64,000 bases of DNA. Origin: Actinophytocola xinjiangensis (GTDB lineage Bacteria > Actinomycetota > Actinomycetes > Mycobacteriales > Pseudonocardiaceae). Of the stretch, positions 42,785 to 62,900 are shown piece by piece. The translations under genes were made by a program, and so were the position numbers. Under the pieces are notes generated by a model, which saw only the letters and a list, made by a program, of their open reading frames with translations, had not been told where the DNA came from and made no database searches. The DNA is taken from NCBI RefSeq assembly GCF_001921215.1, contig NZ_MSIF01000020.1:1-64000 (forward strand), written 5' to 3'. The stretch's first letter is position 1; every line of letters begins with the position of its first letter.

Positions 42785-42800
42785 GCCGCAGTCGAACCCC

Positions 42801-42838: not shown

Positions 42839-42970
42839 GTTCGTTTCCCCAGGAAACAGCGACACGACCATGAAAAATTCATACCGGACGACGTGAACAA
42901 TTCCCTGGGGCCAGACAAATCCGACTGCGACCCTGGACAAGCCGCCCAGCCACCGCCAGAGGAGCCGATC

Positions 42971-43681: not shown

Positions 43682-43723
43682 ACCTACAGTCCACATCGGA
43701 CTTCAGCCTGGGGAAGGATCGAC

Positions 43724-44002: not shown

Positions 44003-44014
44003 CAGGGTGGGAAC

Positions 44015-44839: not shown

Positions 44840-44843
44840 GAAA

Positions 44844-44880
44844 CCGGCCGGGCGGCGAAACGCACAACCCGCCCGGCCGG
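44844..44880. terminator. Bidirectional terminator between convergent genes
   Basis: CCGGCCGGGCGG and its perfect complement CCGCCCGGCCGG form a 12-bp stem with a 13-base loop. It fills the gap between the plus-strand NmrA-like stop (44839) and the minus-strand DUF6875-like stop (44884). Confidence 0.88.
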
Positions 44881-44883
44881 AAC

Positions 44884-45549
44884 TCAGGCGACGTCCAGAT
44901 GGTTGTTGTTGGTCATTCTGGCGACGATCTGGTTGCGCATTCTCGCCGGAATGGTGTCGGCGAACCGCGTCAGATAGCGCTCCAGGTGCGGCTCGGACTC
45001 CAGGAAAGGCAGGTCGAACACCAGCAGCTGACGCACGGCCAGCAACGGGATCGGCGAACGCAACGGCCGGAACGTCCTGCTCCACAGGCCCGGTTCCGGG
45101 CACACCGGGTGGAACTGGCCGATCATCAGGCCCTCGGCGACGAACTCGTCCTTGGCCTTGCGCTGCAACTCGTCCAGCTCGGTGGAGTCCGTGTGGTCCA
45201 GGTGCGGCAGCACCACCAGCAACGCCACCAGCTCGCGGTCGGCCTCGCTCAGCTCGGCGGTGAGCCGCGCGTGCCAGGTCCGCAGCTGGGCGATCACGGC
45301 GGGCATGTCCAGTCCGCCGCCGTCGTCGACCGCCACGCCCAGGTAGTACAGGTCCTTGCGCAGCGACGGCGCGGTGTACGGGCAGACCGGGCCGGTGCGG
45401 CCCAGTGCCGGGTTGGAGGTGACCAGGAACTCCTCGCTCCAGTCCAGGATCTCGTTCAGCGGGCCACGATGCTCCGCCGGCACGGCACCGCTCCTGACCT
45501 GGCTCGCCGGCCAGAGCAGGAGCTGGTCGTCGCCAAGCGCGGCACTCAT
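44884..45549 (-). CDS. DUF6875-like protein of unknown function
   Basis: 221 residues; ATG 45549 overlaps the stop of the decarboxylase fusion (ATGA), so the two are translationally coupled. It has no signal peptide or membrane segment. Conserved-looking stretches are GRTGPVCPYTAPSLRKDLYY (Cys-Pro-Tyr) and HPVCPEPGLW, and a hydrophobic PLLAVRQLLVFDLPFL. The pattern resembles the DUF6875 family; I know no reaction for it. Coupling suggests that it works with the decarboxylase-acetyltransferase. Confidence 0.7.
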   Translation of the reverse strand: MSAALGDDQLLLWPASQVRSGAVPAEHRGPLNEILDWSEEFLVTSNPALGRTGPVCPYTAPSLRKDLYYLGVAVDDGGGLDMPAVIAQLRTWHARLTAELSEADRELVALLVVLPHLDHTDSTELDELQRKAKDEFVAEGLMIGQFHPVCPEPGLWSRTFRPLRSPIPLLAVRQLLVFDLPFLESEPHLERYLTRFADTIPARMRNQIVARMTNNNHLDVA

Positions 45550-50600: not shown

Positions 50601-51044
50601 CAGCCGCAGCGCGTCGTCGAACTCGCGGGCGGCGTGCGCGGCGACCGCGTCGACCACCTCCGCCTCGGCGCGTTCCAGGTCGATCACGGCGCCGGCCGGC
50701 AGTCGCAGCAGGTAGCGCCCGCCCCGGGAGACCACCGCGTCCTCGGTGCCGGCCACGAACGACCGCACGCGGCTCACCACGCTGCGCAGCGCCGAGGCCC
50801 AGGTGTCGGGCAGCCCGTCCGGCCAGACCGTGTCAGCCAGCTGGTCACGGCTGGTGCCGCCGGCACGTTCCATGGCCAGCCGCGCGAACGCGACCTGGGC
50901 CTGGGCGCTCGACAGATAGCGGGCCGCCTCGCCGTTCCCCTCGCCGGCGTCCTCGATCGAGACGAGGCCCGCCAGCCGGATCAGCACGCCGGCAGCCGCC
51001 TGGGGGTCGGTAATCCGGACAGCATCTTCCCCTCCTCTCGACAT
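47622..51044 (-). CDS. Large SARP-type regulator with AAA/NTPase and TPR-like domains
   Basis: 1140 residues if ATG 51044 is used; the winged-helix domain really begins at VLIRLAG, and a GTG at 50987 is a serious alternative (see the leader ORF). Order: winged-helix DNA-binding region, bacterial transcriptional activation (BTAD) domain to about residue 270, NTPase with Walker A GEPGVGKT and Walker B LLLILDD, then a long helical repeat region. There is no LuxR-type HTH at the C-terminus. Large SARPs of this layout activate antibiotic clusters. It is divergent from the oxoamine synthase operon and upstream of the decarboxylase gene, so it may control one or both. Confidence 0.9.
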   Translation of the reverse strand: MSRGGEDAVRITDPQAAAGVLIRLAGLVSIEDAGEGNGEAARYLSSAQAQVAFARLAMERAGGTSRDQLADTVWPDGLPDTWASALRSVVSRVRSFVAGTEDAVVSRGGRYLLRLPAGAVIDLERAEAEVVDAVAAHAAREFDDALRLAESAVACLRRPLLPNHDGEWVGEVRARLAETLVTGLETASLAASALGDGPGALRFADEAVRRAPLRESTHRARMTAHVAAGNRAEAMRCYHELRATLADELGIDPSPESQAAYVELLGAPAEQVPQPQEASRSGPRAPAPFVGRRGERGALAQAWSRAERGTSHMVLVTGEPGVGKTRLVTEAAHQISLAGGVVAHARCDLAPAAPFQPVVEAVGALLAAGLDERLARRATALRDTLGTDQPDHTRAVEQAADLFARISREHPLLLILDDLDQAADDTLAVLRQVFRRRADSALLVVATAGLPARREERLTTLVQQLDQDGWLYRLTLPGLSEQDVRELADEVVPEPFLDEVPAPRRLVADTGGNVYLLLEMLQWPCERGSVGSRAELSPAIHEYATVQLTSLDAVPRRLLRGAVVAGRIFELDLVAEAAGLDLDRAMDALDLLLAAGIVSEAGRGRYRFTHDVLRRATYTQLSAARRRGLHARYAEVVERRRAGDLGRYTRALAHHRTAGATEGGDQHAVRWVWRAAAQAGGDGALEEAVRLHREALRHVPGEDDGLRAEAVTNLGLAQLAAGHRECGQTLLDGALHAMHSERLPVAARAALGLADAVGSRPELRAEAAALIELLVAEDSARWGQRGGNDRIDGVTLGRMLARQVRLGSPLGAGPVTDTALAELTRELGLLEGPGMVARRHTLAGELLTVATAVDDADGRIVAAHHQAMAAELRGDLAGRQAALTTLAAAAHANPLGDALLLEHAVAEAVTRGRFTDAAVVARLAGNVTGSGPGWAAVSPPPGTLAQRQLLVAGLLRTGLWPEPGAAPRTGPEAAERSLRELAGGVRGRPHLTVRAFATGAEPLPSGDEWAHLMGVLALGAVELGDPTTAEALRARLAPYGGLVCGVGYRTFAGQVSFHLGQLAVVTGDWDEAESQLTDAVAWLTVRGARPWVALAKQSLARALAGRARAGDRGSARTLLTEANTALVEAGLAHRVCAVVA
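50981..51025 (-). CDS. Possible 14-residue leader ORF overlapping the regulator start
   Basis: ATG 51025 has the best ribosome binding site of this region (AGAGGAGGGGAAG, five-base spacing) but reads out of frame with the regulator: MLSGLPTPRRLPAC then TGA. The stop lies in GTGCTGA, seven bases overlapping an in-frame GTG (50987) of the regulator, the layout of translational coupling. Alternatively it is a sign of a sequence error at the regulator's start. Confidence 0.45.
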   Translation of the reverse strand: MLSGLPTPRRLPAC

Positions 51045-51194
51045 AAACCCTGCGAGCAGCCGTTTGTGCTGTGGTCGCGTATGGCTTGAGCAACCGGTGG
51101 CGGAGTTGACGCCGATGATGTTGCGCCCCGCTTGCGCGCGCCCCCGTAGAAATCGGAACTGCCGTGACCGTGGTACTTGGGTGAGGAGACGCAT
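51045..51194. promoter_or_regulatory. Divergent intergenic region between regulator and operon
   Basis: 150 bp between the large SARP (minus) and the 12-gene operon (plus). It must contain both promoters. The operon's first gene has a strong GAGGAG six bases before its GTG. I could not assign -35/-10 boxes or SARP direct repeats with confidence. Confidence 0.5.
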
Positions 51195-52412
51195 GTGAAC
51201 GCTTCAGCTGCCTGGCAACACCTTGAGCCGAAGGTTGTGGCGATCAACCGGCGAATCGCGGAACTCGAATGGGAACCCAGTCGCCGCAACAACTTCGTCG
51301 CCTACAAACCCGAGCGGGACAGTTCCTATGTGGAGGTCGACGGCGACCGTCTCCTGATGATGTCCGGCTACGGCTACATCGGCCTCAACGGAGACCAGCG
51401 CGTGGTCGAGGCCGCCAAGGCCGCGGTCGACGAGTACGGCACCGGGACCCCCGGCGTGCGGGCCCTGGCCGGCACCATCCCGCTGCACGAGGAGCTGGAG
51501 GCCGAGGTCGCGAAGTTCACCGGGCGGGAGAGCTCGCTGGTGTTCAGCTCCGGCTACGCCGCCAACGTCGGCACGGTCGGCGCGCTGTGCGGGGCCGGGG
51601 ACACGATCCTGCTCGACAAGCTCGACCACGCCAGCATCGTCGACGGCGCGCAGCTGTCCGGCGCGACGGTGACCCGCTTCCGCCACAACGATCCCCGCCA
51701 CCTCGACCGGCGGCTGGCCGGCACCGACCCGGACACCACCCGGCTGGTCGTCGTGGACAGCGTGTACTCGATGGACGGCGACATCGCGCCGCTGCCGGAG
51801 CTGCGTGAGGTGTGCGACAGGCACGGCGCGCTGCTGATGGTCGACGAGGCGCACTCGCTCGGCGTCATCGGCGCCACCGGCCGGGGCATCGAGGAGCACT
51901 TCAACAACGAGGTCAGGGCCGACATCAAGGTCGGCACGCTGTCCAAGGCGGTGCCGTCCAACGGCGGCTGGATCGTGGGCAACGAGCAGTTCCTGCAGTG
52001 GCTCAAGCGCCTGGCCCGCCCGTTCCTGTTCTCCGCGGCGCTGGCCCCGGCGCAGGTCGGCGCGGCCCTGGAGTCGCTGCGGATCCTCGACCGCGAGCCG
52101 GAGCGGGTGACCCGCGCGCAGGCGGAGTCCGCGCGGTTCCGCCAGATCATGTCCGAGGCCGGGATGAACACCGGCGACTCGCAGACCGCGGTCGTGCCGC
52201 TGATCGTCGGCTCGGACGAGAACGCCTGGGACTACGCGACGGCCTGCCGCAAGGCCGGCGTGATCGGCCTGCCGGTGATGACCCCGGCCGTGCCGCCTGG
52301 CCTGGCCAGGCTGCGGATCGCGATCACCGCCAAGCACACCCGCGAGGAGATCGACTTCGCGATCGACGCCTTCCTCACCGCCGCCCGCCAGTGCCGGCTG
52401 ATCGGGGAGTGA
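51195..52412 (+). CDS. Alpha-oxoamine synthase (KBL/AONS family)
   Basis: 405 residues from GTG 51195 (GAGGAG six bases upstream). PLP-dependent decarboxylative condensation of an amino acid with an acyl thioester. Family motifs are intact: GTPGVRALAGT, HASIVDGAQLS, VDEAHS (Asp217, His220) and the Schiff-base lysine in GTLSKA (Lys251). Length fits 8-amino-7-oxononanoate synthase and the catalytic domain of PigH/RedN. No other biotin genes are present, so biotin synthesis is unlikely. First gene of the operon with KAS II, MaoC, ligase and PCP, it probably joins an acyl-PCP to Ser, Ala or Gly to give an alpha-amino ketone, the precursor of a second pyrrole or pyrroline ring. Confidence 0.9.
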   Translation: MNASAAWQHLEPKVVAINRRIAELEWEPSRRNNFVAYKPERDSSYVEVDGDRLLMMSGYGYIGLNGDQRVVEAAKAAVDEYGTGTPGVRALAGTIPLHEELEAEVAKFTGRESSLVFSSGYAANVGTVGALCGAGDTILLDKLDHASIVDGAQLSGATVTRFRHNDPRHLDRRLAGTDPDTTRLVVVDSVYSMDGDIAPLPELREVCDRHGALLMVDEAHSLGVIGATGRGIEEHFNNEVRADIKVGTLSKAVPSNGGWIVGNEQFLQWLKRLARPFLFSAALAPAQVGAALESLRILDREPERVTRAQAESARFRQIMSEAGMNTGDSQTAVVPLIVGSDENAWDYATACRKAGVIGLPVMTPAVPPGLARLRIAITAKHTREEIDFAIDAFLTAARQCRLIGE

Positions 52413-52416
52413 CGAC

Positions 52417-53646
52417 ATGGCAGGGAAAACCGAGATCGCGATCACCGGTGCCGGGGTCGTCACCCCGGCCGGGTCGACGATAACCGACTTCTGGTCGACG
52501 CTGCTGGCCGGCAAGTCCATGGCCGCCACCCTCGACACCGATGTGGACATGAGCAACCACGGGACCCGGTTCGGCTGTGCGGTGCGTGGCCTGGAGGACG
52601 TCGGTCTGCTCACGCCCAAGGAGTCCCGGCGAATGGACCCGTTCGCCAGGTTCGGCGTCACCGCGGCGCTGAGCGCGTTCCGCGACGCCGGTGAGCCGGT
52701 CGCCGACCCGCACCGCACGGCGATCGTCGTCGGCAACGCGGTGGGCGGGCGGCAGACCACCGACGCCGAGGTCGGCAACTACTTCCTGCACGGGCCGCAC
52801 CGGGTGAACCCGCTGCTGCCGCTGGTGAGCATGCCCAACGCGGCCGCCGCGCTGCTGGCGATGCGCCTTGGCTGGCACGGGCCGGCGCTGACCATCGCCA
52901 CCACCTGCGCCAGCGGCGTTGACGCCATCGGGCACGCGCTGCTGATGCTGCGCGACCACCGCGCGGACATCGTGATCGCCGGTGGCGCGGAGTCGACGCT
53001 GAGCCCGGTGACCCTGGCGGCGTTCAACAACCTCAACGCGGTGTCCTCGCGCAACGACGCGCCGGAGCTGGCGAGCCGGCCCTTCGACGTGGACCGGGAC
53101 GGCTTCGTGATGGGCGAGGGCGCCGGGTTCGTCGTGCTGGAGCGCAAGGCCGACGCCGACGCGCGCGGTGCCCGCACCTACGGCCTGGTCGCCGGCTACG
53201 GCAGCACGGCCGACGCCTACCACCTGGCGATGCCGCTGCCCGACGGGTCGGCGGCGGTCAACGCCATGGAGGCGGCGATCGCCGACGCCGGGCTCGGACC
53301 GTCGGACATCGCGCACATCAACGCGCACGGCACGTCGACCCAGCAGAACGACCGGGCCGAGGCCAACGGGCTGGCCAAGGTGTTCGGGCCGGGCGGGCCG
53401 CCGGTCACCTCGACCAAGAGCGTGATCGGTCACCTGATCGGCGCGGCCGGCGCGGTGGAGGCCATCGCGACCGTGCTGTCCAACCAGCACGCGGTGATCC
53501 CGCCGACGGCCAACCACGAGCGGCTGGAGCCCGGGATGGAGATCGACGTCGTGGCCGGCGCGCCGCGCACCATCACGCCCGGTCCCGCGCTGTCGAACTC
53601 CTTCGGGTTCGGCGGCCACAACGCCTGTCTGGTGGTGACCCCATGA
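52417..53646 (+). CDS. Beta-ketoacyl-ACP synthase II-like protein (FabF family)
   Basis: 409 residues, ATG. Active-site Cys164 in TTCASG, His304 in NAHGTS and His339 in GHLIGAAG, so a complete Cys-His-His condensing enzyme. Four bases after the oxoamine synthase and overlapping the MaoC gene (ATGA). It should elongate a carrier-bound acyl group (possibly pyrrolyl-PCP) with malonyl units. No chain-length-factor partner is present, so it is unlike aromatic type II PKSs. Confidence 0.93.
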   Translation: MAGKTEIAITGAGVVTPAGSTITDFWSTLLAGKSMAATLDTDVDMSNHGTRFGCAVRGLEDVGLLTPKESRRMDPFARFGVTAALSAFRDAGEPVADPHRTAIVVGNAVGGRQTTDAEVGNYFLHGPHRVNPLLPLVSMPNAAAALLAMRLGWHGPALTIATTCASGVDAIGHALLMLRDHRADIVIAGGAESTLSPVTLAAFNNLNAVSSRNDAPELASRPFDVDRDGFVMGEGAGFVVLERKADADARGARTYGLVAGYGSTADAYHLAMPLPDGSAAVNAMEAAIADAGLGPSDIAHINAHGTSTQQNDRAEANGLAKVFGPGGPPVTSTKSVIGHLIGAAGAVEAIATVLSNQHAVIPPTANHERLEPGMEIDVVAGAPRTITPGPALSNSFGFGGHNACLVVTP

Positions 53647-54503
53647 CCCCGGTCGCGACGCTGGTCCGCACGATCACCGTCGGCGAACTGGCCGCCTACC
53701 GCGACGCCGTGCGGTCGGTGGTCGGCTCGCCGGCGCCGGACGGGGCCAGCCCCAAGGCCTCGCCGGTGCACACCTTCGTCCTCGCCCACCAGGCGTTCGA
53801 CCTGGCGTTCGGCAAGATCGACGCCGCCGGCCCGAACGGCGAGGAGCCGACGCGGGTCCACCTCAGCCAGGAGATCCGCGCCGACCGGCTGCTCACGCCG
53901 GGCGAGACGGTGACCATCGAGGTCGACCTGCTCGGTGCCCGCAAGGAGGCCGGCGGGGTGCGGGTGGCCATGCGTGCGGTGCTGGTCGGCGCCGACGGCG
54001 CGACCTTCGCCGAGCTGGTCACCGGGGCCCTGTTGGGCGGCGCGGTCACGCCGGAGCCCTTCGGTGAGCTGCCGCCCTTCCCGGCCCACCGCACGAAGAA
54101 CCCGCCAACCGTCCACAACCGACAGATCGCGGTCGAGGACGTGCGGCGCTACGCGGCGGCCTCCGGGGACACCAACCCCATCCACCTGGAGGACGCCGCC
54201 GCGCGGGCCGCCGGGTTCGACGGGGTCATCGCGCACGGGATGAGCCTGCTGGCGGTGGTGTGTGAGGAGGTCGTCGACCACCACGCCGGCGGGGACGCGT
54301 CGCTGGTGCGTGAGGTCGGTGTCCGGTTCTCCTCACCGGTGCGTCCCGGCGAGCCGATCGACATCACGCTGGCGCCCGACGGCGGCGACACCGTCTGCTT
54401 CAGCTGCCGGACCCCGCAGGGCCTGGCCTTGAAGGGCGGCTGGGTGACCCTTGGTCAGGCGCCCGCATTACCCGTGACCGAAGGCACGATTGCGAGTATG
54501 TGA
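53643..54503 (+). CDS. MaoC-type double hot-dog dehydratase
   Basis: 286 residues. Two hot-dog halves: a degenerate N-terminal one (about 5-135) and a C-terminal MaoC domain with the hydratase-2 motif YAAASGDTNPIH, giving the catalytic pair Asp176 and His181, then AHGMSLL. The arrangement resembles FAS1-type dehydratases and (R)-specific enoyl hydratases. It overlaps both neighbours and would dehydrate a 3-hydroxyacyl-PCP produced after KAS II. No dedicated ketoreductase lies in this operon; the FabG-like gene at 42032 could serve. Confidence 0.9.
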   Translation: MTPVATLVRTITVGELAAYRDAVRSVVGSPAPDGASPKASPVHTFVLAHQAFDLAFGKIDAAGPNGEEPTRVHLSQEIRADRLLTPGETVTIEVDLLGARKEAGGVRVAMRAVLVGADGATFAELVTGALLGGAVTPEPFGELPPFPAHRTKNPPTVHNRQIAVEDVRRYAAASGDTNPIHLEDAAARAAGFDGVIAHGMSLLAVVCEEVVDHHAGGDASLVREVGVRFSSPVRPGEPIDITLAPDGGDTVCFSCRTPQGLALKGGWVTLGQAPALPVTEGTIASM

Positions 54504-56008
54504 TGGCAGAGGTCCCCGGTTTCCAGGAAGCGTTTCTCGCTCAGGTCGACACCCAGCCCAACGCCCCGGCGCTGCTCTGGCACGGCGAGCAGACCTCCTA
54601 CCGCGAGCTGTACGAGATGGCCAGCAAGGCCGGAGCACAGTTGGTGGGGCTCGACCTCGGGCCGGACGAACCCGTTGGCGTGCTGGCCAAGAAGTCCCCG
54701 TCGGCGGTCGCCCTGGTGCTGGCCTGTGTGCTGGCCGGCCGGCGGTTCCTGCTGCCCTCCCCCGCGTTCGCCGAGCGGACGCTGACCGCCCTGTTCGCCA
54801 GGGGCGGCTGCCGGTACGCGCTGGTGCCCGACGCCGACCCGCTCTCGATCCCCCCGGCCGACGGTCCGCCGGCGCTGCGGGTGGTCGACCAGACCGACGT
54901 CTCGTTCATGCTCACCACCTCCGGTTCCACCGGCCTGCCCAAGGTCGTGCCGCTCCCCCAGTCCGGTGTGGACCGTTTCTCCGGCTGGGCGGCGGACTCG
55001 TTCGGCATCGGGCCGGGGCGATCGGTGCTCAACTACGCACCGCTGAACTTCGACCTGTGCCTGCTGGACATCTGGACGACGCTGGCCAGGGGCGGGCGGG
55101 TGGTGCTGGTCGACCCTGCGTTGGCGGCCAACGGTTTCCACCTGCTGAACCTGCTGGCCCGCGAGGAGGTGCACGTTCTCCAGGCGGTGCCGATGTTCTA
55201 CGGCCTGCTGCTGTACGCGGTGATGGCCAAGGAGCCGGAGCGCACGTTCAACTCGGTGGAGCACGTGATGTTCACCGGCGACGCCATGCCGGACTGCACC
55301 CTGGAGCAGCTGCCGGCGGTGTTCCCGTCGGCGCGGCTGTACAACATCTACGGCTGTACCGAGACCAACGACAGCTTCATCCACGAGGTCGAGCGGGAGA
55401 CGGCCGGCACGACCGGCCCGCTGCCGATCGGCACCCCGCTGCCGGGGGTGAGCTCGGCGATCGTCGGCGCGGACGGTGAGGCGCTGACCGGGTCGGGGCT
55501 GGGTGAGCTGTACGTGTCGACCCCGTTCCAGACCGGCGGCTACCTCAACCGGGCCGACCAGGACCACCGGTTCACCGGCCACCCCAACGGCTGGGACGAG
55601 CGGCGGTACTTCCGCACCGGCGACCTGGTCCGCCGCGACGAGTCCGGTCAGGTGTTCCTGGTGGGGCGCAGCGACTTCCAGGTGAAGGTGCGCGGCGTGG
55701 CGATCAACACGGCCGAGGTGGAGCGGGTGCTGATCGAGCACCAGGACGTGCTGGAGGTCGCGGTGGTCACCCGGCACGACGACCTGACGGGCAGCGAACT
55801 GCTGTGCGCGGTGCGGCGGGCACCGGACAGCGGTCTGAACAACCTCGGGCTGCGCAAGCACTGTGCGCGGCGGCTGCCCCGGGCCGCGATCCCCACGGTG
55901 ATCCGGATCGTCGACGAGCCACTGCCGAAGACCTCCACCGGCAAGGTCGACCGCAACGCCATCAGTTTTCCGGATGTATCGCCGAACGCTCGAGGAAGGG
56001 TGTCATGA
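54503..56008 (+). CDS. Amino-acid:carrier-protein AMP ligase, prolyl type (PltF/RedM-like)
   Basis: 501 residues; ATG 54503 shares one base with the MaoC stop (TGATG). A3 core TTSGSTGLPK (138-147), A4 NFDLCLLDIW (182-191), A5 YGCTETND, A8 VKVRGVAINTAEVE, A10 lysine in STGKVDR. No fused PCP; a discrete PCP follows immediately. The stand-alone layout, the D-L-L at the first specificity positions and the YGCTETND variant are what I recall for proline ligases of pyrrole pathways (PltF, RedM, PigI). With the PCP and the dehydrogenase it predicts L-prolyl-S-PCP. Proline specificity is inferred, not proven. Confidence 0.88.
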   Translation: MAEVPGFQEAFLAQVDTQPNAPALLWHGEQTSYRELYEMASKAGAQLVGLDLGPDEPVGVLAKKSPSAVALVLACVLAGRRFLLPSPAFAERTLTALFARGGCRYALVPDADPLSIPPADGPPALRVVDQTDVSFMLTTSGSTGLPKVVPLPQSGVDRFSGWAADSFGIGPGRSVLNYAPLNFDLCLLDIWTTLARGGRVVLVDPALAANGFHLLNLLAREEVHVLQAVPMFYGLLLYAVMAKEPERTFNSVEHVMFTGDAMPDCTLEQLPAVFPSARLYNIYGCTETNDSFIHEVERETAGTTGPLPIGTPLPGVSSAIVGADGEALTGSGLGELYVSTPFQTGGYLNRADQDHRFTGHPNGWDERRYFRTGDLVRRDESGQVFLVGRSDFQVKVRGVAINTAEVERVLIEHQDVLEVAVVTRHDDLTGSELLCAVRRAPDSGLNNLGLRKHCARRLPRAAIPTVIRIVDEPLPKTSTGKVDRNAISFPDVSPNARGRVS

Positions 56009-56265
56009 GCAATATTGAGGCAATCAAGAGGTTTCTGATCGAGGAGTTCCTGCCGGACGTGAACTCCAGCGAGCTGGACGTGGACCACGACCTGCTCGGT
56101 GACGGGCTCATCGACAGCCTCGGCGTGCTGAAGCTGATCACCTGGCTGGAGGAGAAGTTCAGCCTCACGATCGGCGACGCCGAGCTGGACCCGGACAACT
56201 TCCGCAGTGTCGCGGCGATCGAGCAGTTCATCGCGGTCTCCGGAGCGACGACAACCAGGAGCTGA
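56005..56265 (+). CDS. Discrete peptidyl/acyl carrier protein
   Basis: 86 residues, overlapping the ligase stop (ATGA). The phosphopantetheine site is LIDSLGVLKL with Ser38. It is translationally coupled to the ligase and so is its likely partner; the acyl dehydrogenase further down would oxidise the prolyl group while bound here, like PltL or PigG. Confidence 0.92.
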   Translation: MSNIEAIKRFLIEEFLPDVNSSELDVDHDLLGDGLIDSLGVLKLITWLEEKFSLTIGDAELDPDNFRSVAAIEQFIAVSGATTTRS

Positions 56266-56269: not shown

Positions 56270-57301
56270 ATGGGCGCGGTACTCGAAGGACTGGTGAACC
56301 AGCGCGCCGGGGTCGGTCTCGACGACTGGCGGTCCTTCTGGGACCGGTTGGAGTCCGGTGAGGTCGAGCGCGGCGAGGCGGTCGCCGTGCTCTCCTCGCT
56401 GGCCACCCGGCTCCCGGACCACGACACGCTGTGCGGCCTGCTGGCCTCGTTCGACGAACGGCGCGAGCAGGCGCCGTCACACTGGGCGGGAGCGGTCAAC
56501 ATCGTCGGCACCGGCGGGGGTCCACGCACGTTCAACATCTCCACCGCGTCGGCGTTCGTGGCCGCCGCGATGGGGGTGCCGGTGGTGAAGACCGGGTCGC
56601 GCGCCTACACCAGCAAGCTGGGGTCGATAGACCTGTTGGAACGACTGGGGATCGGACTCACCAAGTCCCACATGGACACCGAGGACTCGTTGGACCGCTT
56701 CGGTCTGGCCTTCGCCGGGCAGTTCGTCTACCCCCGGGTGCTGACCAGGCTGGCCAGGGTGATCGTGCCGACCAGCATGCGCTGGTTCGGCCGGTTCCTG
56801 AACACCGTCGGGCCGTTCATCGCGGGGCTGCCGGTGGCCGCCCAGCTGACCGGGGTGTCGGCGGCCGCGCCGCTGCCCCGGCTGCGCCAGCTCGCCGGCG
56901 CGGTGTCCGACCGGACGATCTGGCTGTGCACCAACGACGCCGGCGCCGACGAGCTGCTCGGCTTCGCCGAGAACATCATCTACACGCCCGGTGGCGAGCA
57001 GGCGTTGCCGCGCGGGAAGTACACCTCCGGCGCGGGGACGCTGGACTCGGTGGCGCCGGCCGATGACCTGGAGTCCACGCTGACCCAGTTCCTCGACGTG
57101 CTCTCGGGGTTGGCCGGGGACATCCCCACCGAGACGATCAGCATCAACGCCGCGGCGATGGCGGTGGCCAGTGGCCGGTTCGAGGACTGGCCGCCGGCGG
57201 TCGCCGCGGCACGGCTGGCCATCCGCGACGGTCTGGCCCGCGACCTGGCCGAACGCATGCGCTCGACCGCCAGCGGCCGCCGGGCGGTGGCGAATGGCTG
57301 A
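56270..57301 (+). CDS. Anthranilate phosphoribosyltransferase-like protein (TrpD family)
   Basis: 343 residues from ATG 56270. TrpD transfers phosphoribose from PRPP to the amine of anthranilate. The PRPP loop GTGGGPRTFNIS (80-91), Asn89 and STASAFVAAA are intact, and the magnesium-binding Asp-Glu appears in GADELLGF. But the KHGNR motif of classical TrpD is KTGSR here (107-111) and the GxRTxxNxxGPLxNP region is GRFLNTVGPFIAG, so the acceptor pocket differs. It is the first of four Trp homologues in the operon, with no TrpE or TrpG; the amine acceptor may not be plain anthranilate. Confidence 0.88.
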   Translation: MGAVLEGLVNQRAGVGLDDWRSFWDRLESGEVERGEAVAVLSSLATRLPDHDTLCGLLASFDERREQAPSHWAGAVNIVGTGGGPRTFNISTASAFVAAAMGVPVVKTGSRAYTSKLGSIDLLERLGIGLTKSHMDTEDSLDRFGLAFAGQFVYPRVLTRLARVIVPTSMRWFGRFLNTVGPFIAGLPVAAQLTGVSAAAPLPRLRQLAGAVSDRTIWLCTNDAGADELLGFAENIIYTPGGEQALPRGKYTSGAGTLDSVAPADDLESTLTQFLDVLSGLAGDIPTETISINAAAMAVASGRFEDWPPAVAAARLAIRDGLARDLAERMRSTASGRRAVANG

Positions 57302-58121
57302 GTTCTTCCCGAACCGGGGTGGCGACGGGTACGGCCTGGCGTTGTTCCTCAACGCCGGCGACCCGCCGCTGCCCGTGCTGGCCGATCTGGTCCAGATGCT
57401 CGACGAGTCCGGGGTGGACTGTCTGGAGCTGGCGGTGCCGTTCCCCAACTCGGTCACCGACGGCCCGACGATCCGCCGCTCGGCCGACCGGGCGCTGGCC
57501 CAGGGTGTCGGTCTGGCCGAGGTGCTGGCGTTCGTGGCCAGGGTCCGGCCGACGCTGCGCCGGTTGCGGATCGCGCTGCTGGCCGACTGGGCGTACTCGA
57601 TCCGGGGACGTTCGCTGGCCTCGGCCACCGGCGAGATCCTGGAGTCCGGTGTGGACGGACTGCTGCTGCACGCGCTGCCACCGAAGCTGCGCGCGGAGTA
57701 CCACGAGGTCACCGCCGAGGCCGGACTGCCGATCGTCACCACCTGCTACCACGGCAAGTCCTCGCCGCAGGTGCTGGCCACCGCCGCGGCCAACGCCTCG
57801 GCCTACCTCTACCTCGTCGCGCACTACGGCAAGAGCGGCACCACCGCGGCCACCGATCACCCGGCGCTGGCCGCCACCATCACCGGCCTGCGCGCCCACA
57901 CCAGTGCCCCGATCGCCGTCGGTTTCGGCGTGCGGGACCGGCGGGGCGCCCAGGCGGTGGCCGCGTGCGGGGCGGACGCGGTGATCATCGGCTCGGCCGG
58001 CGTCGCCCGGGTCGAGAGCGCACTCGCCGACGACCGCGACGTCGTCGACGAGTTCAGGAACTTCGTTCGGTCCATCGGTGCACCTGACGAGGAAATCTCA
58101 ACAATCACGACCGGAGGTTGA
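57294..58121 (+). CDS. Tryptophan synthase alpha-like protein (TrpA family)
   Basis: 275 residues, overlapping the TrpD-like stop by eight bases. TrpA cleaves indole-3-glycerol phosphate to indole and glyceraldehyde 3-phosphate. Both catalytic acids are present: Glu45 (LELAVPF) and Asp56 (TDGPTI); the phosphate site (GFGVRDRRGA, IIGSAGV) is recognisable. The VPDLP loop is LHALP and the YYVSRxGVTG segment is LYLVAHYGKSG, so substrate contacts differ. No TrpB is in the window, so it should release a free fused pyrrole product, as the lone alpha-type lyase BX1 does in maize. Confidence 0.87.
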   Translation: MAEFFPNRGGDGYGLALFLNAGDPPLPVLADLVQMLDESGVDCLELAVPFPNSVTDGPTIRRSADRALAQGVGLAEVLAFVARVRPTLRRLRIALLADWAYSIRGRSLASATGEILESGVDGLLLHALPPKLRAEYHEVTAEAGLPIVTTCYHGKSSPQVLATAAANASAYLYLVAHYGKSGTTAATDHPALAATITGLRAHTSAPIAVGFGVRDRRGAQAVAACGADAVIIGSAGVARVESALADDRDVVDEFRNFVRSIGAPDEEISTITTGG

Positions 58122-58123
58122 TC

Positions 58124-58498
58124 ATGATCGTTCGCCAGAGCGACAGCGTGCCGACCGTGGAGTGGGGCAACGGCACGAGCCAGCGCTTCCTCGTCGCGGC
58201 CGACGGCGTCGGCTACACCGTGACCAACACCCTCGTCCGCGCCGGCACCAAATCGAGGCTGGAGTATCGCAACCACCTGGAGGCCTGCTACTGCTACGCG
58301 GGTTCCGGCGAGGTCATCGAGTTGGACGGCACCTCCCACCCGATCGTGCCGGGCACCCTGTACGCGCTCAACGAACACGACGCGCACTTCCTGATCGCCA
58401 GCCCGCACGAGGACATGCACCTGGTGTGCGTGTTCACCCCCGCGCTCCGCGGAGACGAGGTGCACAGCCTCGACGAGCACGTCTCCTCGGCGTACTAG
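58124..58498 (+). CDS. Ectoine-synthase-like cupin (EctC family)
   Basis: 124 residues; ATG 58124 six bases after GGAGG was preferred to TTG 58118. The sequence follows EctC closely in pattern: a MIVR start, DGVGYTVTNT, AGTKSRLEYRNHLEACYC, PGTLYALNEHDAHFL and LVCVFTP. The iron ligands of EctC (Glu57, Tyr85, His93) correspond to Glu53, Tyr80 and His88. EctC closes a ring by intramolecular condensation of an amine with an amide carbonyl. No EctA, EctB or EctD is nearby, so here it probably catalyses an analogous dehydrative cyclisation of a pathway intermediate. Confidence 0.88.
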   Translation: MIVRQSDSVPTVEWGNGTSQRFLVAADGVGYTVTNTLVRAGTKSRLEYRNHLEACYCYAGSGEVIELDGTSHPIVPGTLYALNEHDAHFLIASPHEDMHLVCVFTPALRGDEVHSLDEHVSSAY

Positions 58499-58510
58499 AA
58501 GGCGGTTCAT

Positions 58511-59656
58511 GTGACCCGATGGAACGCGGACCAGCGCGCGCTGCGCGAGGGGCTGGCCCGGTGGTACGACGACCTCAGCGACGGGCACGTCGAACGGGAC
58601 GAGGAAGGAGGGTTCGCCTGGGACAAGTGGAAACTGATCCGGGAGACCGGCATTCTCTCGCTCCCGTTCGAGGAGCGCTGGGGTGGGCTCGGCCAGGACG
58701 TGCTCACGATGATGTACGTCCTGGAGGGCCTGGGCGAGGGCTGCCGCGACAGCGGTCTGAGCTTCTCGCTGACCACCACCATCTGCAGTACCGGCGTTCC
58801 ACTGGAGAAGTTCGGTACCGACGAGCAGAAACAGCGGTACCTGCCGCGGATCTGCTCGGGTGAGGCGATCGGCGCGCACGCGATCACCGAGGCGAGCGGC
58901 GGGTCGGATGCCATGCGCATGCTGACCAAGGCCGACCGCGACGGCGACGAGTTCGTGCTCAACGGCAGCAAGACCTTCGTCAGCAACGCGCCGGTGGCCG
59001 ACGTGATCGTGGTCTACGCCAGGACCCGTCCGGACGCCGGGGCGTTGGGCATCACGGCGTTCCTGGTCGACGCGGACACGCCGGGGCTGTCGGTCGGCAA
59101 GCCCATGAAGAAGATGGGCCTGCGGACCTCACCACTGTCGGAGCTGTTCTTCGACGACGTCCGGGTGCCGAAGTCCCAGGTGCTCGGTCGGGTCGGTGGC
59201 GGGTTCATGGTGCTGGACCACGTGATGAAACGGGAGATCCTGTACTCGTTCATCGTCAACGTGGGCGAGATGCAGCACCGGCTGGACCGCTGCATCGAGT
59301 ACGCCAAGTCCCGCGTGCAGTTCGGCAAGCCGATCGGCGCGCACCAGTCGGTGGCCAACCGGATCGTGGAGATGAAGATCAAGCTGGAGACGGCCCGCAA
59401 GTGGCTCTACGACACCGGTCAGCGGCTGATGGACGGCGAGAACGTGACCGTCGATCTCGCCATCGCCAAGCTGCTGACCAGTGAGAGCAACCTGGAGTCG
59501 AGCCTGTCGGCGGTGCAGATCTTCGGTGGGCACGGCTACATGTCCGAGCACGGCCTGGAGAAGGACGTGCGCAACTCGGTCGCCGGCACGATCTACTCGG
59601 GCACCACGGAGATCCAGTACAACCGGATCGCCTCGATGCTGGGACTGGGCAAGTGA
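58511..59656 (+). CDS. Acyl-CoA dehydrogenase-like prolyl-PCP oxidase
   Basis: 381 residues, GTG start after GGCGG. Acyl-CoA dehydrogenase fold: ITEASGGSD (125-133), FGGHGYM, and a C-terminal IYSGTTEIQ. The usual catalytic Glu of YEGT is Ser363, but Glu242 (MKREILYSF) stands at the alternative helix-G base position used by isovaleryl-CoA dehydrogenase and by the prolyl-PCP dehydrogenase PigA (Glu244 as I recall). With the ligase and PCP it predicts two-step oxidation of prolyl-S-PCP to pyrrolyl-2-carboxyl-S-PCP with FAD. Other carrier-bound amino acids remain possible. Confidence 0.88.
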   Translation: MTRWNADQRALREGLARWYDDLSDGHVERDEEGGFAWDKWKLIRETGILSLPFEERWGGLGQDVLTMMYVLEGLGEGCRDSGLSFSLTTTICSTGVPLEKFGTDEQKQRYLPRICSGEAIGAHAITEASGGSDAMRMLTKADRDGDEFVLNGSKTFVSNAPVADVIVVYARTRPDAGALGITAFLVDADTPGLSVGKPMKKMGLRTSPLSELFFDDVRVPKSQVLGRVGGGFMVLDHVMKREILYSFIVNVGEMQHRLDRCIEYAKSRVQFGKPIGAHQSVANRIVEMKIKLETARKWLYDTGQRLMDGENVTVDLAIAKLLTSESNLESSLSAVQIFGGHGYMSEHGLEKDVRNSVAGTIYSGTTEIQYNRIASMLGLGK

Positions 59657-60345
59657 GCGCGCTGCTCAAGGTGTGCGGGGCGACGTCCACGGCGGACGTC
59701 GCCCTGCTCACCGGCCACGGGGCCGACCTGGTCGGGCTCTGGCACGGGATCCCCGGCGGCCGGGCGGAACTGTCGCTGCCGGCGGCGGTCGAGCTGGCCG
59801 CGGCGACCAGGGCGGCCGGTGCCGAGCCGATCCTGGTCACCTTCAGCAAGGACGTGGCCGTGCTGCGCGCGGTGCTGGCCGAGACCGGGATCCGCTGGGT
59901 GCAGCTGCACGCCTACCAGCTGCCGGCGACGGTCGCTGGCCTGCACGCGGCGCTGCCCGGGGCGCTGACCGTGGTGAAGGTGCTGCACCTGCGTGGCGGC
60001 ACCTTCCTGGAACGCCCGCTGGTGGCCGCCTACGAGCGGGCGGGCACCGACCTGTTCCTGCTGGACACGCTGACCGACGACGGCCAGGTCGGCAGTACCG
60101 GCCAGGCGCTGGACGCCGGCGACGCGCTGGCCGTCGCCGACCGGCTCGACCGCCCGTTCCTGCTGGCCGGCGGCCTGTCGGCGACCAACCGGGGCGACTA
60201 CGACGCGGTGGTCGCCCACCGGCACTACGCCGGCATCGACGTGGACACCTCGGCCAGGGACGACGCCGGCCGGTTCGCCGCCGGCGCGGTGGGCGCGATC
60301 GCCGCCGCCTGGCACACCGCCCGGTACCGCAAGGAGGTCGCGTGA
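59653..60345 (+). CDS. Phosphoribosylanthranilate isomerase-like protein (TrpF family)
   Basis: 230 residues, GTGA overlap with the dehydrogenase. TrpF performs the Amadori rearrangement of the N-phosphoribosyl amine. The general base Cys8 (KVCGATS for KICGLT) and the general acid Asp138 (FLLDT) are both there, as is the GSTGQALD loop (canonical GGTG...FDW) and LAGGLSATN for the second phosphate site. The end, AGIDVDTSARD, matches GVDVSSGVE. Likely functional as an isomerase acting on the TrpD-like product. Confidence 0.9.
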   Translation: MSALLKVCGATSTADVALLTGHGADLVGLWHGIPGGRAELSLPAAVELAAATRAAGAEPILVTFSKDVAVLRAVLAETGIRWVQLHAYQLPATVAGLHAALPGALTVVKVLHLRGGTFLERPLVAAYERAGTDLFLLDTLTDDGQVGSTGQALDAGDALAVADRLDRPFLLAGGLSATNRGDYDAVVAHRHYAGIDVDTSARDDAGRFAAGAVGAIAAAWHTARYRKEVA

Positions 60346-61100
60346 GCCAGCCCGACAACGCGCTGCGGGACGCCTTCGTCGCCCGCAACGCGCGCAAGGC
60401 GTCCTTCACCGGTTCGCTGCTGGAGGCGCGCCGGCCGCTGATCATGGAGGTCAAGCGGCACGACGGCGACGGCACCGACCTGCTCGGCGGCCGCACGCTC
60501 GCGCAGGTCGTCGCCGGCTACGAGGCGGCGGGGGCGCCGTGCGTGTCGGTGGTGACCGGCCGCTGGTTCGGCGGCACCGAGTCGATGCTGACCGAGGTGG
60601 CCGAGCTGACCGACCTGCCGATCCTGCAGAAGGACTTCATCACCCGTCGGGCGCAGGTCAGCCGGGCCAAGGCGCTGGGTGCGTCGGCGGTGCTGCTCAC
60701 CGCCGGGCTGCTGGCGAGGTCGAGCCTCGCGACGCTGGTCGACGCCTGTCTGTCGGTGGGCCTCACACCGTTCGTCGAGGTGACCACCGAGGCCGAGATC
60801 ACCTCGGTGCCGCACCCGGAGCACTGCGTGATCGCGGTGAACAACAAGGACATCAAGACCCGGGAACGGGAGCCAGGCGATCTGGGGCGCAGCCAGCGGC
60901 TGCTGCCGGCCGTGCTGGACACCGGCACCCCGTGCCCGGTCAGCGCCAGCGGCATCGGCGCCCCGGAGGTCGCCGCCGGTCTGCTGCGCGCGGGCTACGC
61001 CGGCCTGCTGGTCGGCACGACCCTGCTGCGCACCGGGAATCTCGACGACTATTTGTCCACATTGGACGCCGAGTTGGCTCGGCAGGGGGACGCGAGATGA
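60342..61100 (+). CDS. Indole-3-glycerol-phosphate synthase-like protein (TrpC family)
   Basis: 252 residues, GTGA overlap with the TrpF-like gene. TrpC closes the pyrrole ring with loss of CO2 and water. Catalytic Glu36 and Lys38 (IMEVKR), Lys97 (LQKDFI), Glu146 (FVEVTTE) and the Asn pair in AVNNKDI (167-168) are retained. Two changes stand out: the VSESGI motif is VSASGI, so the conserved Glu is Ala202, and the SPS stretch after the first lysine is HDGDG. Both affect substrate or phosphate binding, which supports an altered substrate. Confidence 0.88.
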   Translation: MSQPDNALRDAFVARNARKASFTGSLLEARRPLIMEVKRHDGDGTDLLGGRTLAQVVAGYEAAGAPCVSVVTGRWFGGTESMLTEVAELTDLPILQKDFITRRAQVSRAKALGASAVLLTAGLLARSSLATLVDACLSVGLTPFVEVTTEAEITSVPHPEHCVIAVNNKDIKTREREPGDLGRSQRLLPAVLDTGTPCPVSASGIGAPEVAAGLLRAGYAGLLVGTTLLRTGNLDDYLSTLDAELARQGDAR

Positions 61101-61828
61101 GCGACTGGGTCCGCCGGCTGGGACCGGGACAGGACGGCCACCGGCTGGTGTGCTTCCCGTACGCGGGCGGCACGGCCAAGTACTTCCGGCCCTACGCCCG
61201 CGCGCTGGCGGCCGGCGCCGAGGTGCTCGCCGTGCAGTACCCGGGACGCCAGGAGCGGCGCGACGAGCCGCCGATCGACGACCTGGGCGAGCTGACCAGG
61301 CTGGTGGTGGACGCGGTGCTGCCGCTGGCCGACCGGCCGGTGACCTTCTTCGGCCACAGCATGGGCGCCGCGCTGGCCTTCGAGGTCGCCCGCCAGCTGG
61401 AGGACAAGGGCGTGGTACTGGCCGGCCTGTTCGTCTCCGGGCGCCGCGCGCCCTCACGTCACCGGATCGAACGCACCCACCTGCTCGGCGACCACATGCT
61501 GCTCGGCTCGGTACGTGCCCTGGCCGGCCCGAGCGCGAAACTCCCCGGCTTCGACACCTTCGCCCGCAACGCGTTGCCGCTGATCCGCGTGGACTACCGG
61601 GCCGCGGAGACCTACGAGTACGTGCCGGGCCCGCCGCTGTCCTGCCCGCTCACCGCGCTCACCGGCGACGCCGACCCGCTGGCCGCCGTGGACGAGGTCG
61701 CCTCCTGGGGCGAGCACACCACCGGCGAGTTCCGGCTGCGGGTCTTCGGCGGCGGCCACTTCTACCTCGACGAGCACCGCGCGCCGATCGTGGAACTGCT
61801 CGCCGAACACCTCGCGGCCGGAACCTGA
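61097..61828 (+). CDS. Type II thioesterase
   Basis: 243 residues, ATGA overlap with the TrpC-like gene; last gene of the operon. Nucleophile Ser88 in GHSMG, Asp in TGDADPL and His in GGHFYL. FPYAGGTAKYF and YPGRQER are typical of type II (RifR/GrsT) thioesterases that remove wrong acyl groups from carrier proteins or release small intermediates. Its place here suggests hydrolytic editing or release from the discrete PCP or the PKS. Confidence 0.94.
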   Translation: MSDWVRRLGPGQDGHRLVCFPYAGGTAKYFRPYARALAAGAEVLAVQYPGRQERRDEPPIDDLGELTRLVVDAVLPLADRPVTFFGHSMGAALAFEVARQLEDKGVVLAGLFVSGRRAPSRHRIERTHLLGDHMLLGSVRALAGPSAKLPGFDTFARNALPLIRVDYRAAETYEYVPGPPLSCPLTALTGDADPLAAVDEVASWGEHTTGEFRLRVFGGGHFYLDEHRAPIVELLAEHLAAGT

Positions 61829-61832: not shown

Positions 61833-62648
61833 CTACGCGGACGCGGTGGTCAGCAGCTGACCGCTGGTGTGCTGGCGGTGCAGCACCGGGTCGGAGTTGA
61901 GGATGGCGCGCTGGATGCGCTGGATCCACACCGACGGCTCAAGGCCCAGCTCGTCGACCATCGTGGTGCGCAGCTTGCGGAAGATCTCCAGCGCCCGCCA
62001 CTGCCGGCCCGAGCGGTACTGGGCGATCATGTACTGCGCGCACAGCCGCTCGTTCATCGGGTAGCGCGCGGTCAGCTCCGCCAGCTCGCTGAGCAGGTGG
62101 TGGTGGCGCCCCAGCCACAGGTCGGCGTCGACACAGTCCTCCACGACGCCCAACCGGCTCTCCTCCAGGCGGTTGACGTGCACGCTCAGCGGGTGCCCGG
62201 CCGCCACGTCGACCAGCGCCGGCCCGCGCCACATCGCCAGGGCGCGGCGCATCGAGTCCGACGCCGCCTGGTAGTCGTCGCGGGCCATCTCCTGCAGTCC
62301 CTTGCGGGCCAACACCTCGTAGTGGCCGGCGTCGAGGTCCCGGCGGTTGATCCGCAGCGAGTACCCGGTGTGCCGGGTGACCAGCAGCGTCTTGCCGACG
62401 TCGGACTTGCTCATGCCCATCGCGTCGCCGATGCGTTGGCGCAGGTGCAGGATGTAGGTCTGTAACGTCTGTTGCGAGGTCTCCGGGGGTTCGTTGCCCC
62501 ACAGCTCCTCCAGCAGTACCCGCACCGAGACGATCTCCCCGGCGTGCAACGCCAGCAGGGCGAGCACCTGCCGGTGCTTGGCCGCGCTTGGCGTGATCGC
62601 GTCGCCGTTCACGTAGGTCTCCAACGGACCCAGCACATTGATCTGCAT
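61833..62648 (-). CDS. SARP-family transcriptional activator (small)
   Basis: 271 residues from ATG 62648, with GGAGG eight bases upstream; ATG 62654 is in frame but too near the SD. The N-terminal winged helix (MQINVLGPLE, HRQVLALLALHAGEIV, LLEELWGNEPPE, LQTYILHLRQ) is followed by the BTAD helices ending in SVWIQRIQRAIL. Length and layout match ActII-ORF4/RedD-type pathway activators. It is convergent with the thioesterase (4-bp gap) and likely activates cluster promoters. Confidence 0.95.
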   Translation of the reverse strand: MQINVLGPLETYVNGDAITPSAAKHRQVLALLALHAGEIVSVRVLLEELWGNEPPETSQQTLQTYILHLRQRIGDAMGMSKSDVGKTLLVTRHTGYSLRINRRDLDAGHYEVLARKGLQEMARDDYQAASDSMRRALAMWRGPALVDVAAGHPLSVHVNRLEESRLGVVEDCVDADLWLGRHHHLLSELAELTARYPMNERLCAQYMIAQYRSGRQWRALEIFRKLRTTMVDELGLEPSVWIQRIQRAILNSDPVLHRQHTSGQLLTTASA

Positions 62649-62900
62649 GGCCATGACCTCCCAAGCTCGGCCGGGTTGGCGTGTCTGGCGACTGGCCGAA
62701 GCACTGGGGCAACGCTCGCAGATCGATCGAGCCACCGGCAGTGACCACGGCACGAACGACGATGTGAAAACTCTGGGGACAAGACATGAGAAACGCATAC
62801 CCCACTCATGATCCGGGCACTGGTCGCGTACGCGCGTGGTACCGACACTTTCCTTCAGGGCCGTTGAGGTCGTACCACTCGAGTCCAGAGGGAGCCACCC
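62649..62900. promoter_or_regulatory. Divergent intergenic region with palindromes
   Basis: 252 bp between the SARP and the cyclodehydratase unit. It contains a CGCGTACGCG palindrome (62825-62834) and an inverted pair GTGGTACCGAC (62836-62846) and GTCGTACCAC (62869-62878), 22 bases apart, just upstream of the short ORF. The pair could be an operator. No convincing -35/-10 was identified. Confidence 0.5.

Follow-up and report, generated by a model that had tools for sequence, protein, structure and literature searches.

The first 64,000 nucleotides of contig NZ_MSIF01000020.1 of Actinophytocola xinjiangensis (hereafter the window; the first part of a 159-kb contig in a genome of 9.5 Mb) carry a compact biosynthetic cassette in which homologues of the tryptophan-pathway enzymes TrpD, TrpA, TrpF and TrpC are combined with an adenylation enzyme, a peptidyl carrier protein (PCP), an ectoine-synthase-like cupin and a dehydrogenase. 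Judged by its sequence, the cassette is a pyrrolopyrrole module of the kosinostatin type, and it very probably makes a kosinostatin-like pyrrolopyrrole. The best explanation of the whole is that a carrier-bound bicyclic amidine (the pyrrolopyrrole) would be built from glutamine by way of the cassette. We give this reading a probability of roughly 0.6; glutamine as the precursor we rate slightly better than even.

The cassette and its counterpart in a kosinostatin producer

Twelve head-to-tail genes, most of them overlapping or a few bases apart, occupy 51177–61828 on the forward strand. In order they encode a BioF/alpha-oxoamine-synthase-like pyridoxal phosphate (PLP) enzyme (AONS; 51177..52412; TIGR00858, 387.6 bits, below the cut-off of 426), a FabF-like ketosynthase (52417..53646; TIGR03150, 432.6 bits, below the cut-off of 494), a MaoC-like dehydratase (53643..54503; PF01575, 78 bits), a free-standing amino-acid adenylation enzyme (54500..56008; PF00501), a peptidyl/acyl carrier protein, the PCP (56005..56265; PF00550, 27.9 bits), a TrpD-like phosphoribosyltransferase (56270..57301), a TrpA-like lyase (57294..58121), the cupin (58124..58498), an acyl-CoA-dehydrogenase-like flavoenzyme (58511..59656), a TrpF-like isomerase (59653..60345), a TrpC-like synthase (60342..61100) and a type II thioesterase (61097..61828; PF00975, 168 bits). 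The starts of the PCP (56005), TrpA-like (57294), cupin (58124) and TrpC-like (60342) genes are revised ones. A first-pass annotation of this DNA had placed the four Trp-like genes at 56270–61100, in an overlapping operon with a carrier protein. They are present as placed, with support from hidden Markov models, but the unit is larger than was described, and the cupin and the RedW/PigA-like dehydrogenase had gone unmentioned.

Eight of the genes, from adenylation enzyme to TrpC-like synthase (the core genes), recur in the same order (A-PCP-TrpD-TrpA-cupin-dehydrogenase-TrpF-TrpC) in Micromonospora okii TP-A0468, the kosinostatin producer, with identities to the window of 55, 49, 54, 55, 62, 62, 56 and 61%, respectively. 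The M. okii adenylation enzyme (locus L161) shares the invariant binding-pocket residues described below and differs only at the variable positions 299 and 322. Beyond the cassette, M. okii has genes that by eye are of nucleotide-sugar, aromatase/cyclase-like and ketosynthase type. The bicyclic amidine of kosinostatin is reportedly built in the manner of tryptophan, with a discrete adenylation enzyme and PCP, as Ma et al. are said to have found in 2013. Table 5 of PMC7918784 assigns to kstB the loading of nicotinic acid and its conversion to a pyrrole, and to kstC the reaction of that pyrrole with phosphoribosyl pyrophosphate to give the pyrrolopyrrole; a passage of PMC13099267 states that knockout of ksnC3, a putative phosphoribosylanthranilate (PRA) isomerase gene, abolishes kosinostatin. 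Because eight genes stand in the same order in a kosinostatin producer, and because of these kst and ksn assignments, we regard the module as one of known kind.

The likeness to the kosinostatin/quinocycline kstB–kstC genes (M. okii; ksn in S. albidoflavus) thus covers eight core genes, their order and 49–62% identity. The surroundings differ: the kosinostatin unit is paired with a type II polyketide synthase (PKS) and an octose, whereas that of the window is joined to BioF-like, FabF-like and MaoC enzymes. Among the annotated window genes, a non-exhaustive family scan met neither a KS-alpha/KS-beta pair of a type II PKS nor octose genes; the discrete ketosynthases of the window are the FabF-like enzyme and a KASIII. 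The precursor differs too, nicotinate being the published one and glutamine the one proposed here. The subrubines, which came up as a literature match, are unrelated.

The Trp-like proteins are divergent and stand apart from primary metabolism

The TrpD-like protein scores 123.9 bits against TIGR01245 (cut-off 199) and the TrpC-like protein 131.3 bits against NF001376 (cut-off 284), while the TrpF-like protein is very divergent (PF00697, 34.5 bits); all three lie under the NCBIfam equivalog cut-offs. The TrpA-like protein reaches its equivalog score (TIGR00262, 137.1 bits against a cut-off of 102), yet falls in a separate clade. No PDB match to the TrpF-like protein was obtained by sequence at E 0.001. 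Its AlphaFold model (predicted local distance difference test score, pLDDT, 94.4) has a predicted PRA-isomerase fold, and PRA isomerases or TrpCF enzymes account for all 12 of its best fold matches in the PDB.

Relatives of the cassette were collected by scanning genome contigs with an alignment of the TrpF-like protein. The best 80 of 83 loci, a pattern-selected set, were kept, each reaching at most 10 kb to either side. Residues were counted, window included, after bit-score and length filters that retained 70 of 72 adenylation enzymes, 79 of 81 TrpF-, 77 of 78 TrpC-, 72 of 73 TrpA- and 75 of 75 TrpD-like proteins and 72 of 72 cupins. Catalytic residues persist throughout: Cys8 and Asp138 in TrpF (79/79), Glu and Asp in TrpA (72/72), and the Glu/Lys/Lys/Glu set in TrpC (77/77). 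The pockets are altered. The canonical KHGNR motif of TrpD has become K-T/S-G-S-R (KTGSR in the window), with His replaced by Thr or Ser in 75/75 and Asn by Ser in 73/75; in TrpC the SPS of KRxSPS is lost and the equivalent of Glu210 is Ala in 76 of the 77; in TrpA a Pro is His in all 72. The first-pass annotation had described just this combination, kept catalytic residues beside changed pockets in TrpD, TrpC (Ala) and TrpA (His), and it is both true of the window and family-wide. Together with the retention of the core acids and lysines, the TrpD and TrpC pocket changes would fit a smaller substrate that has no ortho carboxylate. A supposed loss of the arginine with which TrpD binds the anthranilate carboxylate was dropped, since the alignment is ambiguous there and the aligned column holds Lys or Arg in 75/75.

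Trees (FastTree, untrimmed alignments) were built from 25 loci hand-picked from the 80, the TrpF outgroup being eight sequences, namely the genome's own TrpF and seven found with it. As the first-pass annotation had proposed, cassette proteins were compared with Trp enzymes of primary metabolism, and they lie outside the canonical clades: separation from the sampled canonical enzymes has supports of 1.0 for TrpD, 0.993 for TrpC, 0.981 for TrpA and 0.999 for TrpF. Canonical copies of TrpC (252.7 bits), TrpA (219.5 bits) and TrpD (363.6 bits) are encoded elsewhere in the genome, and by eye trpB-like and hisA/PriA-like genes lie near canonical trpC and trpA. A second trp set, which the first-pass annotation had suggested looking for, is therefore present for TrpD, TrpC and TrpA, but the genome's other TrpF-family protein (C3:231184-231807) lacks the catalytic Cys, an Ala standing at that position. 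In actinomycetes PriA supplies the TrpF step. High-scoring canonical TrpD, TrpC and TrpA were also found in all 14 cassette genomes searched, which were picked from 26 others of the same family.

The claim that TrpE and TrpB are missing alongside the cassette also stands: searched with the genome's own TrpE and TrpB and with a TrpB2, the window gave a best E of 0.04 (TrpE) and nothing for TrpB or TrpB2 (TrpG was not searched for). In sum, the cassette enzymes are homologous to those of the canonical pathway (TrpD, TrpF/PriA, TrpC, TrpA) and keep their catalytic residues, but differ in their separate clades, altered pockets and carrier-protein context and in having no TrpE or TrpB match in the window. 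Because of the separate clades and the canonical TrpD, TrpC and TrpA elsewhere, the four genes appear to serve a route of their own to a fused ring resembling indole, and not to be a spare trp set. To that extent the earlier proposal of an indole-analogue route holds, although with kosinostatin known it is not new in principle.

Other Trp homologues were seen in this and related genomes. An extra TrpC/TrpA pair (C12:474077-475479; TrpC 145 and TrpA 80 bits; locus L006, 7084–7794 and on) adjoins genes that by eye resemble 3-deoxy-D-arabino-heptulosonate 7-phosphate (DAHP) synthase, chorismate mutase and flavin adenine dinucleotide (FAD) oxidoreductase, and possibly belongs to another indole-related cluster. 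A further TrpA-family gene (204 bits; C71:179386-180048) lies away from both the trp locus and the cassette; a second high-scoring TrpA also occurs in genomes G401, G402, G403, G405 and G408.

Enzymes expected to form the first ring

The specificity code of the adenylation enzyme, with positions assigned by motif and not by structure, is D-L-L-Q-M-T-I-D-S-K. Asp235, Gln278, Asp330, Ser331 and Lys517 are invariant in the 70 adenylation enzymes, giving a pocket of the form D L L Q x T/S x D S K, and the same code recurs in 14/14 additional sequences, from 13 places, whose loci have no TrpD/A/F/C genes alongside. Asp235 is what we take to be the usual mark of enzymes for alpha-amino acids as opposed to aryl acids. 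The code differs from proline codes as we know them; among the enzyme's relatives in the PDB is the prolyl-PCP ligase 6o6e (E 1e-43). For contrast, an aryl-acid code given in a section of PMC8400222 reads PLPAQGVVNK.

The cupin scores 138 bits against the ectoine synthase model PRK13290, above the cut-off of 128, and matches PDB 5onn at E 6e-28. Equivalents of EctC Trp21, Arg25, Thr40, Tyr52, Glu57, Tyr84 and His92 are retained in 72/72: that is, the iron ligands (Glu57/Tyr84/His92) and the substrate residues are kept, with the exception of position 38 (the roles are those given in parts of PMC6344544). It shares with EctC the residues for metal binding and amide cyclisation, and differs in a three-residue insertion after Trp21, in a position 38 that is mostly Thr, and in its context, no ectA/ectB-type gene having been met in the cassette. 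EctC has a side reaction in which the cyclic amidine 5-amino-3,4-dihydro-2H-pyrrole-2-carboxylate (ADPC) is formed from glutamine (passages in PMC4795551 and PMC6344544). The carbons of ADPC are those of one glutamine.

The best matches of the dehydrogenase are the models for the prolyl-PCP dehydrogenases RedW and PigA (NF045652 and NF053553; 368 bits each against cut-offs of 650 and 500, so that equivalog level is not reached). In the 4-methoxy-2,2′-bipyrrole-5-carbaldehyde (MBC) branch of prodigiosin biosynthesis (PigI/G/A/J/H; RedM/O/W/X/N), pyrrole-2-carboxyl-PCP is extended by a ketosynthase and an alpha-oxoamine synthase. The cassette resembles this branch in its logic: adenylation enzyme, PCP and dehydrogenase that would lead to a pyrrole-carboxyl-PCP, then extension by a ketosynthase and an alpha-oxoamine synthase. 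It differs in adding the cupin and TrpD/A/F/C, in a code that does not look to be of the proline type, and in having the ketosynthase and BioF-like enzyme as separate proteins.

A proposed pathway from glutamine

The chemistry that we propose builds on the enzyme set and its order, the separate clades, the catalytic residues and the synteny with M. okii, all read from sequence. Glutamine is proposed because of the invariant adenylation code, Asp235 above all, and the conserved ectoine-synthase active site. The adenylation enzyme would charge the PCP with an L-amino acid; glutamine is the likeliest candidate, or else ADPC, its cyclic amidine. The cupin would then condense the alpha-amine with the side-chain amide, with loss of water, to give 5-amino-3,4-dihydropyrrole-2-carboxyl-PCP, from which the RedW-like dehydrogenase would take two hydrogens to leave 5-aminopyrrole-2-carboxyl-PCP. 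The TrpD-like enzyme would place phosphoribose on the exocyclic amine, the TrpF-like enzyme would carry out the Amadori rearrangement, and the TrpC-like enzyme would close the second ring on the neighbouring C–H, losing water and no CO2. Finally, the TrpA-like enzyme would free glyceraldehyde 3-phosphate, leaving 1,6-dihydropyrrolo[2,3-b]pyrrole-2-carboxyl-PCP. If glutamine is first cyclised to the amidine, no ortho carboxylate need be lost in the TrpC-like step, and both nitrogens of the amidine carbon would come from the same glutamine molecule. The first-pass annotation had envisaged annulation onto an amino-carboxylate; the fused-ring route is retained here, but the substrate is probably a carrier-loaded amino acid and not a free amino-carboxylate.

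In type I loci, those arranged as in the window, extension of the acyl group would fall to the FabF-like ketosynthase and BioF-like enzyme, much as in the prodigiosin MBC branch. In a second arrangement (type II) the acid would be released, decarboxylated and, where TrpB2 is present, coupled to serine. More broadly, and with the odds about evenly balanced, there may be a family of carrier-bound amidine pathways from glutamine, in which an EctC fold closes glutaminyl-PCP, a dehydrogenase fold yields the 5-aminopyrrole, and a non-decarboxylating TrpD/F/C/A module is optional. Its three outlets would be extension by ketosynthase and alpha-oxoamine synthase; release followed by UbiD and TrpB2/serine, giving an amino acid that resembles tryptophan but carries a 5-5 ring; and clusters that stop at the aminopyrrole.

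Distribution and architecture among related loci

All eight core genes are present in 64 of the 80 loci, and in 48 of the 57 covered over at least 20 kb. The other nine of these 57 are L109, L134, L141, L153, L154, L173, L175, L180 and L184; in L141 and L153 TrpA is the last core gene visible, ∼1 kb from the locus end. Type I loci, with BioF-like enzyme and ketosynthase, number 33 and come from Streptomyces, Kitasatospora, Arthrobacter, Nocardiopsis, Actinocrispum, Spirilliplanes and others; a BioF-like gene occurs in 34/80 and the ketosynthase in 39/80. Three Kibdelosporangium loci (L113, L114, L145) have ketosynthase and MaoC, with no BioF-like gene within the stretch covered. Type II loci are marked by a transglutaminase-like gene (18/80), UbiD (14/80) or TrpB2 (7/80), all seven TrpB2 loci having UbiD. 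No locus of the 80 combines the BioF-like gene (34 loci) with the transglutaminase-like gene (18), and none combines it with UbiD (14), in counts that ignore kinship of the loci. Mutual exclusion of BioF-like and transglutaminase-like genes fits direct transfer in the one type and release in the other. Some loci, including that of kosinostatin, have neither the BioF-like gene nor transglutaminase-like or UbiD genes.

A third form emerged from the neighbours of cupin matches, read for 30 loci: A-PCP-cupin-dehydrogenase-transglutaminase-like, without adjacent TrpD, TrpA, TrpF or TrpC. It is represented by nine loci from genomes without a TrpF-like match, by L278 (the same as L287), and by L287, L288, L289 and L293. 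Such an arrangement would be expected if the first ring is made before annulation. Among 390 same-family genomes, including that of the window, 55 have a close relative of the cupin (E 1e-30) and 27 a TrpF-like protein (E 1e-15), with 23 in common. Genomes G403, G405 and G408 have two separate sites, one with PCP-TrpD-TrpB2-TrpF-TrpC-UbiD and one with A-PCP-cupin-dehydrogenase-transglutaminase-like-TrpB2. On account of these genomes and the third-form loci, the pathway seems to split into a ring-making and an annulating unit. The loci that combine TrpB2 and UbiD suggest tryptophan-like amino acids as products.

Several further arrangements are worth recording. L287, L288 and L293 have A-PCP-cupin-dehydrogenase-transglutaminase-like-TrpB2 and no TrpD/A/F/C in 20 kb; these are possible aminopyrrolyl-alanine pathways. 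LanM-like (DUF4135) genes beside type II cassettes with TrpB2 in L082, L094, L097 and L099 raise the question of a lanthipeptide link. Relatives in Proteobacteria records (L119, L141, L153 and L171: a Rhodospira metagenome-assembled genome (MAG), Roseomonas, Azospirillum and an Acetobacteraceae MAG) may reflect horizontal transfer. In a phylum-wide sample, the TrpF-like query met nothing closer than 36% identity outside its own genome.

Weighing alternative explanations

Several observations count against the glutamine route. The adenylation code fits no glutamine code that we know of. Position 38 of EctC, a carboxylate contact that is Asn in the solved enzyme, is Thr in 69 of the 72 cassette cupins; the change might be read as proving that the substrate is a thioester, but 4/4 authentic actinobacterial EctCs checked have His at this position, so that Thr lends little weight to a masked carboxylate. 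The Trp-like enzymes may act on the PCP-bound acid or on the free acid. The reaction giving ADPC is worded as a condensation of two glutamines in one passage (PMC4795551) and as a glutamine condensation in another (PMC6344544). Above all, the route conflicts with the published origin of the kosinostatin unit from nicotinic acid and ribose, with kstB loading nicotinic acid, as stated in parts of PMC5321127, PMC8400222 and PMC7918784 (Table 5), all of which cite Ma 2013. If that origin applies here, the same pyrrolopyrrole module would load nicotinate, and the cupin and dehydrogenase would remodel it to a pyrrole. We consider this possible but doubtful: contraction of a pyridine ring is not an obvious task for any conserved core gene, it is hard to see what folds of the ectoine-synthase and prolyl-dehydrogenase types would do with nicotinate, and the Asp235 found in 70/70 is, as we understand it, a mark of alpha-amino acids and not of aryl acids.

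A route in which proline is loaded and becomes pyrrole-2-carboxyl-PCP by oxidation, as happens for prodigiosin, and in which the Trp-like enzymes work on an amine that enters later, would suit the dehydrogenase, closest to RedW/PigA, and the kinship of the adenylation enzyme with 6o6e. It is nonetheless improbable: the invariant Gln278 and Asp330 are ill-suited to proline by the codes known to us, TrpD chemistry requires an exocyclic amine, which a pyrrole carboxylate does not have, and the cupin, present in 71/80 loci, would be left without a role. In favour of an ordinary supply of indole are the canonical catalytic residues, which are kept, and a reaction order that suffices to turn anthranilate into indole for a cluster product. 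Yet KHGNR, SPS and Glu210 are altered family-wide, the genes are tightly linked to adenylation enzyme, PCP, cupin and dehydrogenase, and they are syntenic with those for kosinostatin, whose product has a pyrrolopyrrole (PMC7918784); we think this very unlikely. That these are redundant or decaying tryptophan genes is scarcely credible given the separate clades and the 80 related loci, in which the catalytic residues persist, and nothing was found in its favour. Conversion of glutamine to a carrier-bound pyrrolopyrrole remains the reading we prefer.

Genomic neighbourhood

Genes outside the cassette were called with a simple GC-frame open reading frame picker, and their starts are approximate. 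The cassette is flanked by regulators, both assigned by eye: an AfsR/SARP-type protein of at most 1190 amino acids, start uncertain (47622..51194, reverse strand), and a SARP-like protein (61833..62798, reverse strand). The former has homologues in nine loci, is conserved next to the cassette in loci of type I, and is 69% identical to its counterpart in Actinophytocola gossypii; the latter is 80% identical. The type II thioesterase has an 80% homologue in A. gossypii (L075, the same as L107) and weak matches of 30–40% in L080, L081, L101, L151 and L177. The region from 32.2 to 61.8 kb is largely common to A. gossypii (51–88% identity), with some rearrangement: there the NmrA-like short-chain dehydrogenase/reductase (SDR) lies further upstream. 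Accessory genes at 32197..47579, known from synteny and family matches and mostly common to A. gossypii, comprise an SDR (32197), ABC-like, phosphopantetheinyl transferase (PPTase)-like, anthrone-oxygenase-like, alpha/beta hydrolase, FAD oxidase, flavin monooxygenase (FMO)-like and KASIII proteins, a second SDR (41966), DUF2306, the NmrA-like SDR and a PLP decarboxylase with a GNAT-like part; the names of the SDR at 32197 and of the ABC, PPTase, NmrA and GNAT members were given by eye. A CMAS methyltransferase (39621) and DUF6875 (44884) lie in the same interval, outside the set matched to A. gossypii. By eye the PLP decarboxylase (45546–47579) seems fused to the GNAT-like part; in Kibdelosporangium-group loci these are separate adjoining genes. 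Directly after the downstream regulator lies a YcaO protein (350 bits; 62786–64000, continuing in locus L004 at 787–3240). Its A. gossypii counterpart is 79% identical and in syntenic position. A second modification cluster may start with this gene. Repeats in the region amount to nothing beyond low-identity GC-rich matches.

A modular type I PKS (3–30024, reverse strand) with a loading acyltransferase–acyl carrier protein pair runs off the contig start, and beside it are free-standing A-PCP (26786–28537) and C-PCP (adenylation, condensation; 28537–30024) proteins. The first-pass annotation had taken the Trp-like genes to be part of this PKS cluster, which comes down to adjacency. Within 100 kb upstream of the A. 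gossypii cassette there is no orthologue of the PKS, A-PCP or C-PCP genes of the window (3–30 kb); a nonribosomal peptide synthetase/PKS there starts ∼40 kb upstream and is 35–45% (PKS genes) and 28–36% (A-PCP, C-PCP) identical to the window's. The ketosynthases of the window PKS are 62–76% identical among themselves, and one of them, compared with the 80 loci, has a best match of 133 bits against 520–850 for the window's own modules. On the A. gossypii synteny and this best match we reject the modular PKS as a conserved pathway partner. From sequence comparison we treat it as a neighbour of the cassette, outside the conserved unit; it may have been recruited to the pathway in this strain.

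Implications

The kind of module is already known from kosinostatin; here it is found within another, widespread kind of cluster. No description of its BioF-like and TrpB2 variants was met in the open-access literature, subscription papers lying outside the search. If the proposed route is true, the two nitrogens on one amidine carbon would be explained as the amide and amine of a single glutamine, and the published nicotinic-acid origin of the kosinostatin pyrrolopyrrole would receive a testable correction. Many loci (34 of the 80 with a BioF-like gene, seven with TrpB2) would then be likely to make undescribed pyrrolopyrroles or tryptophan-like amino acids.

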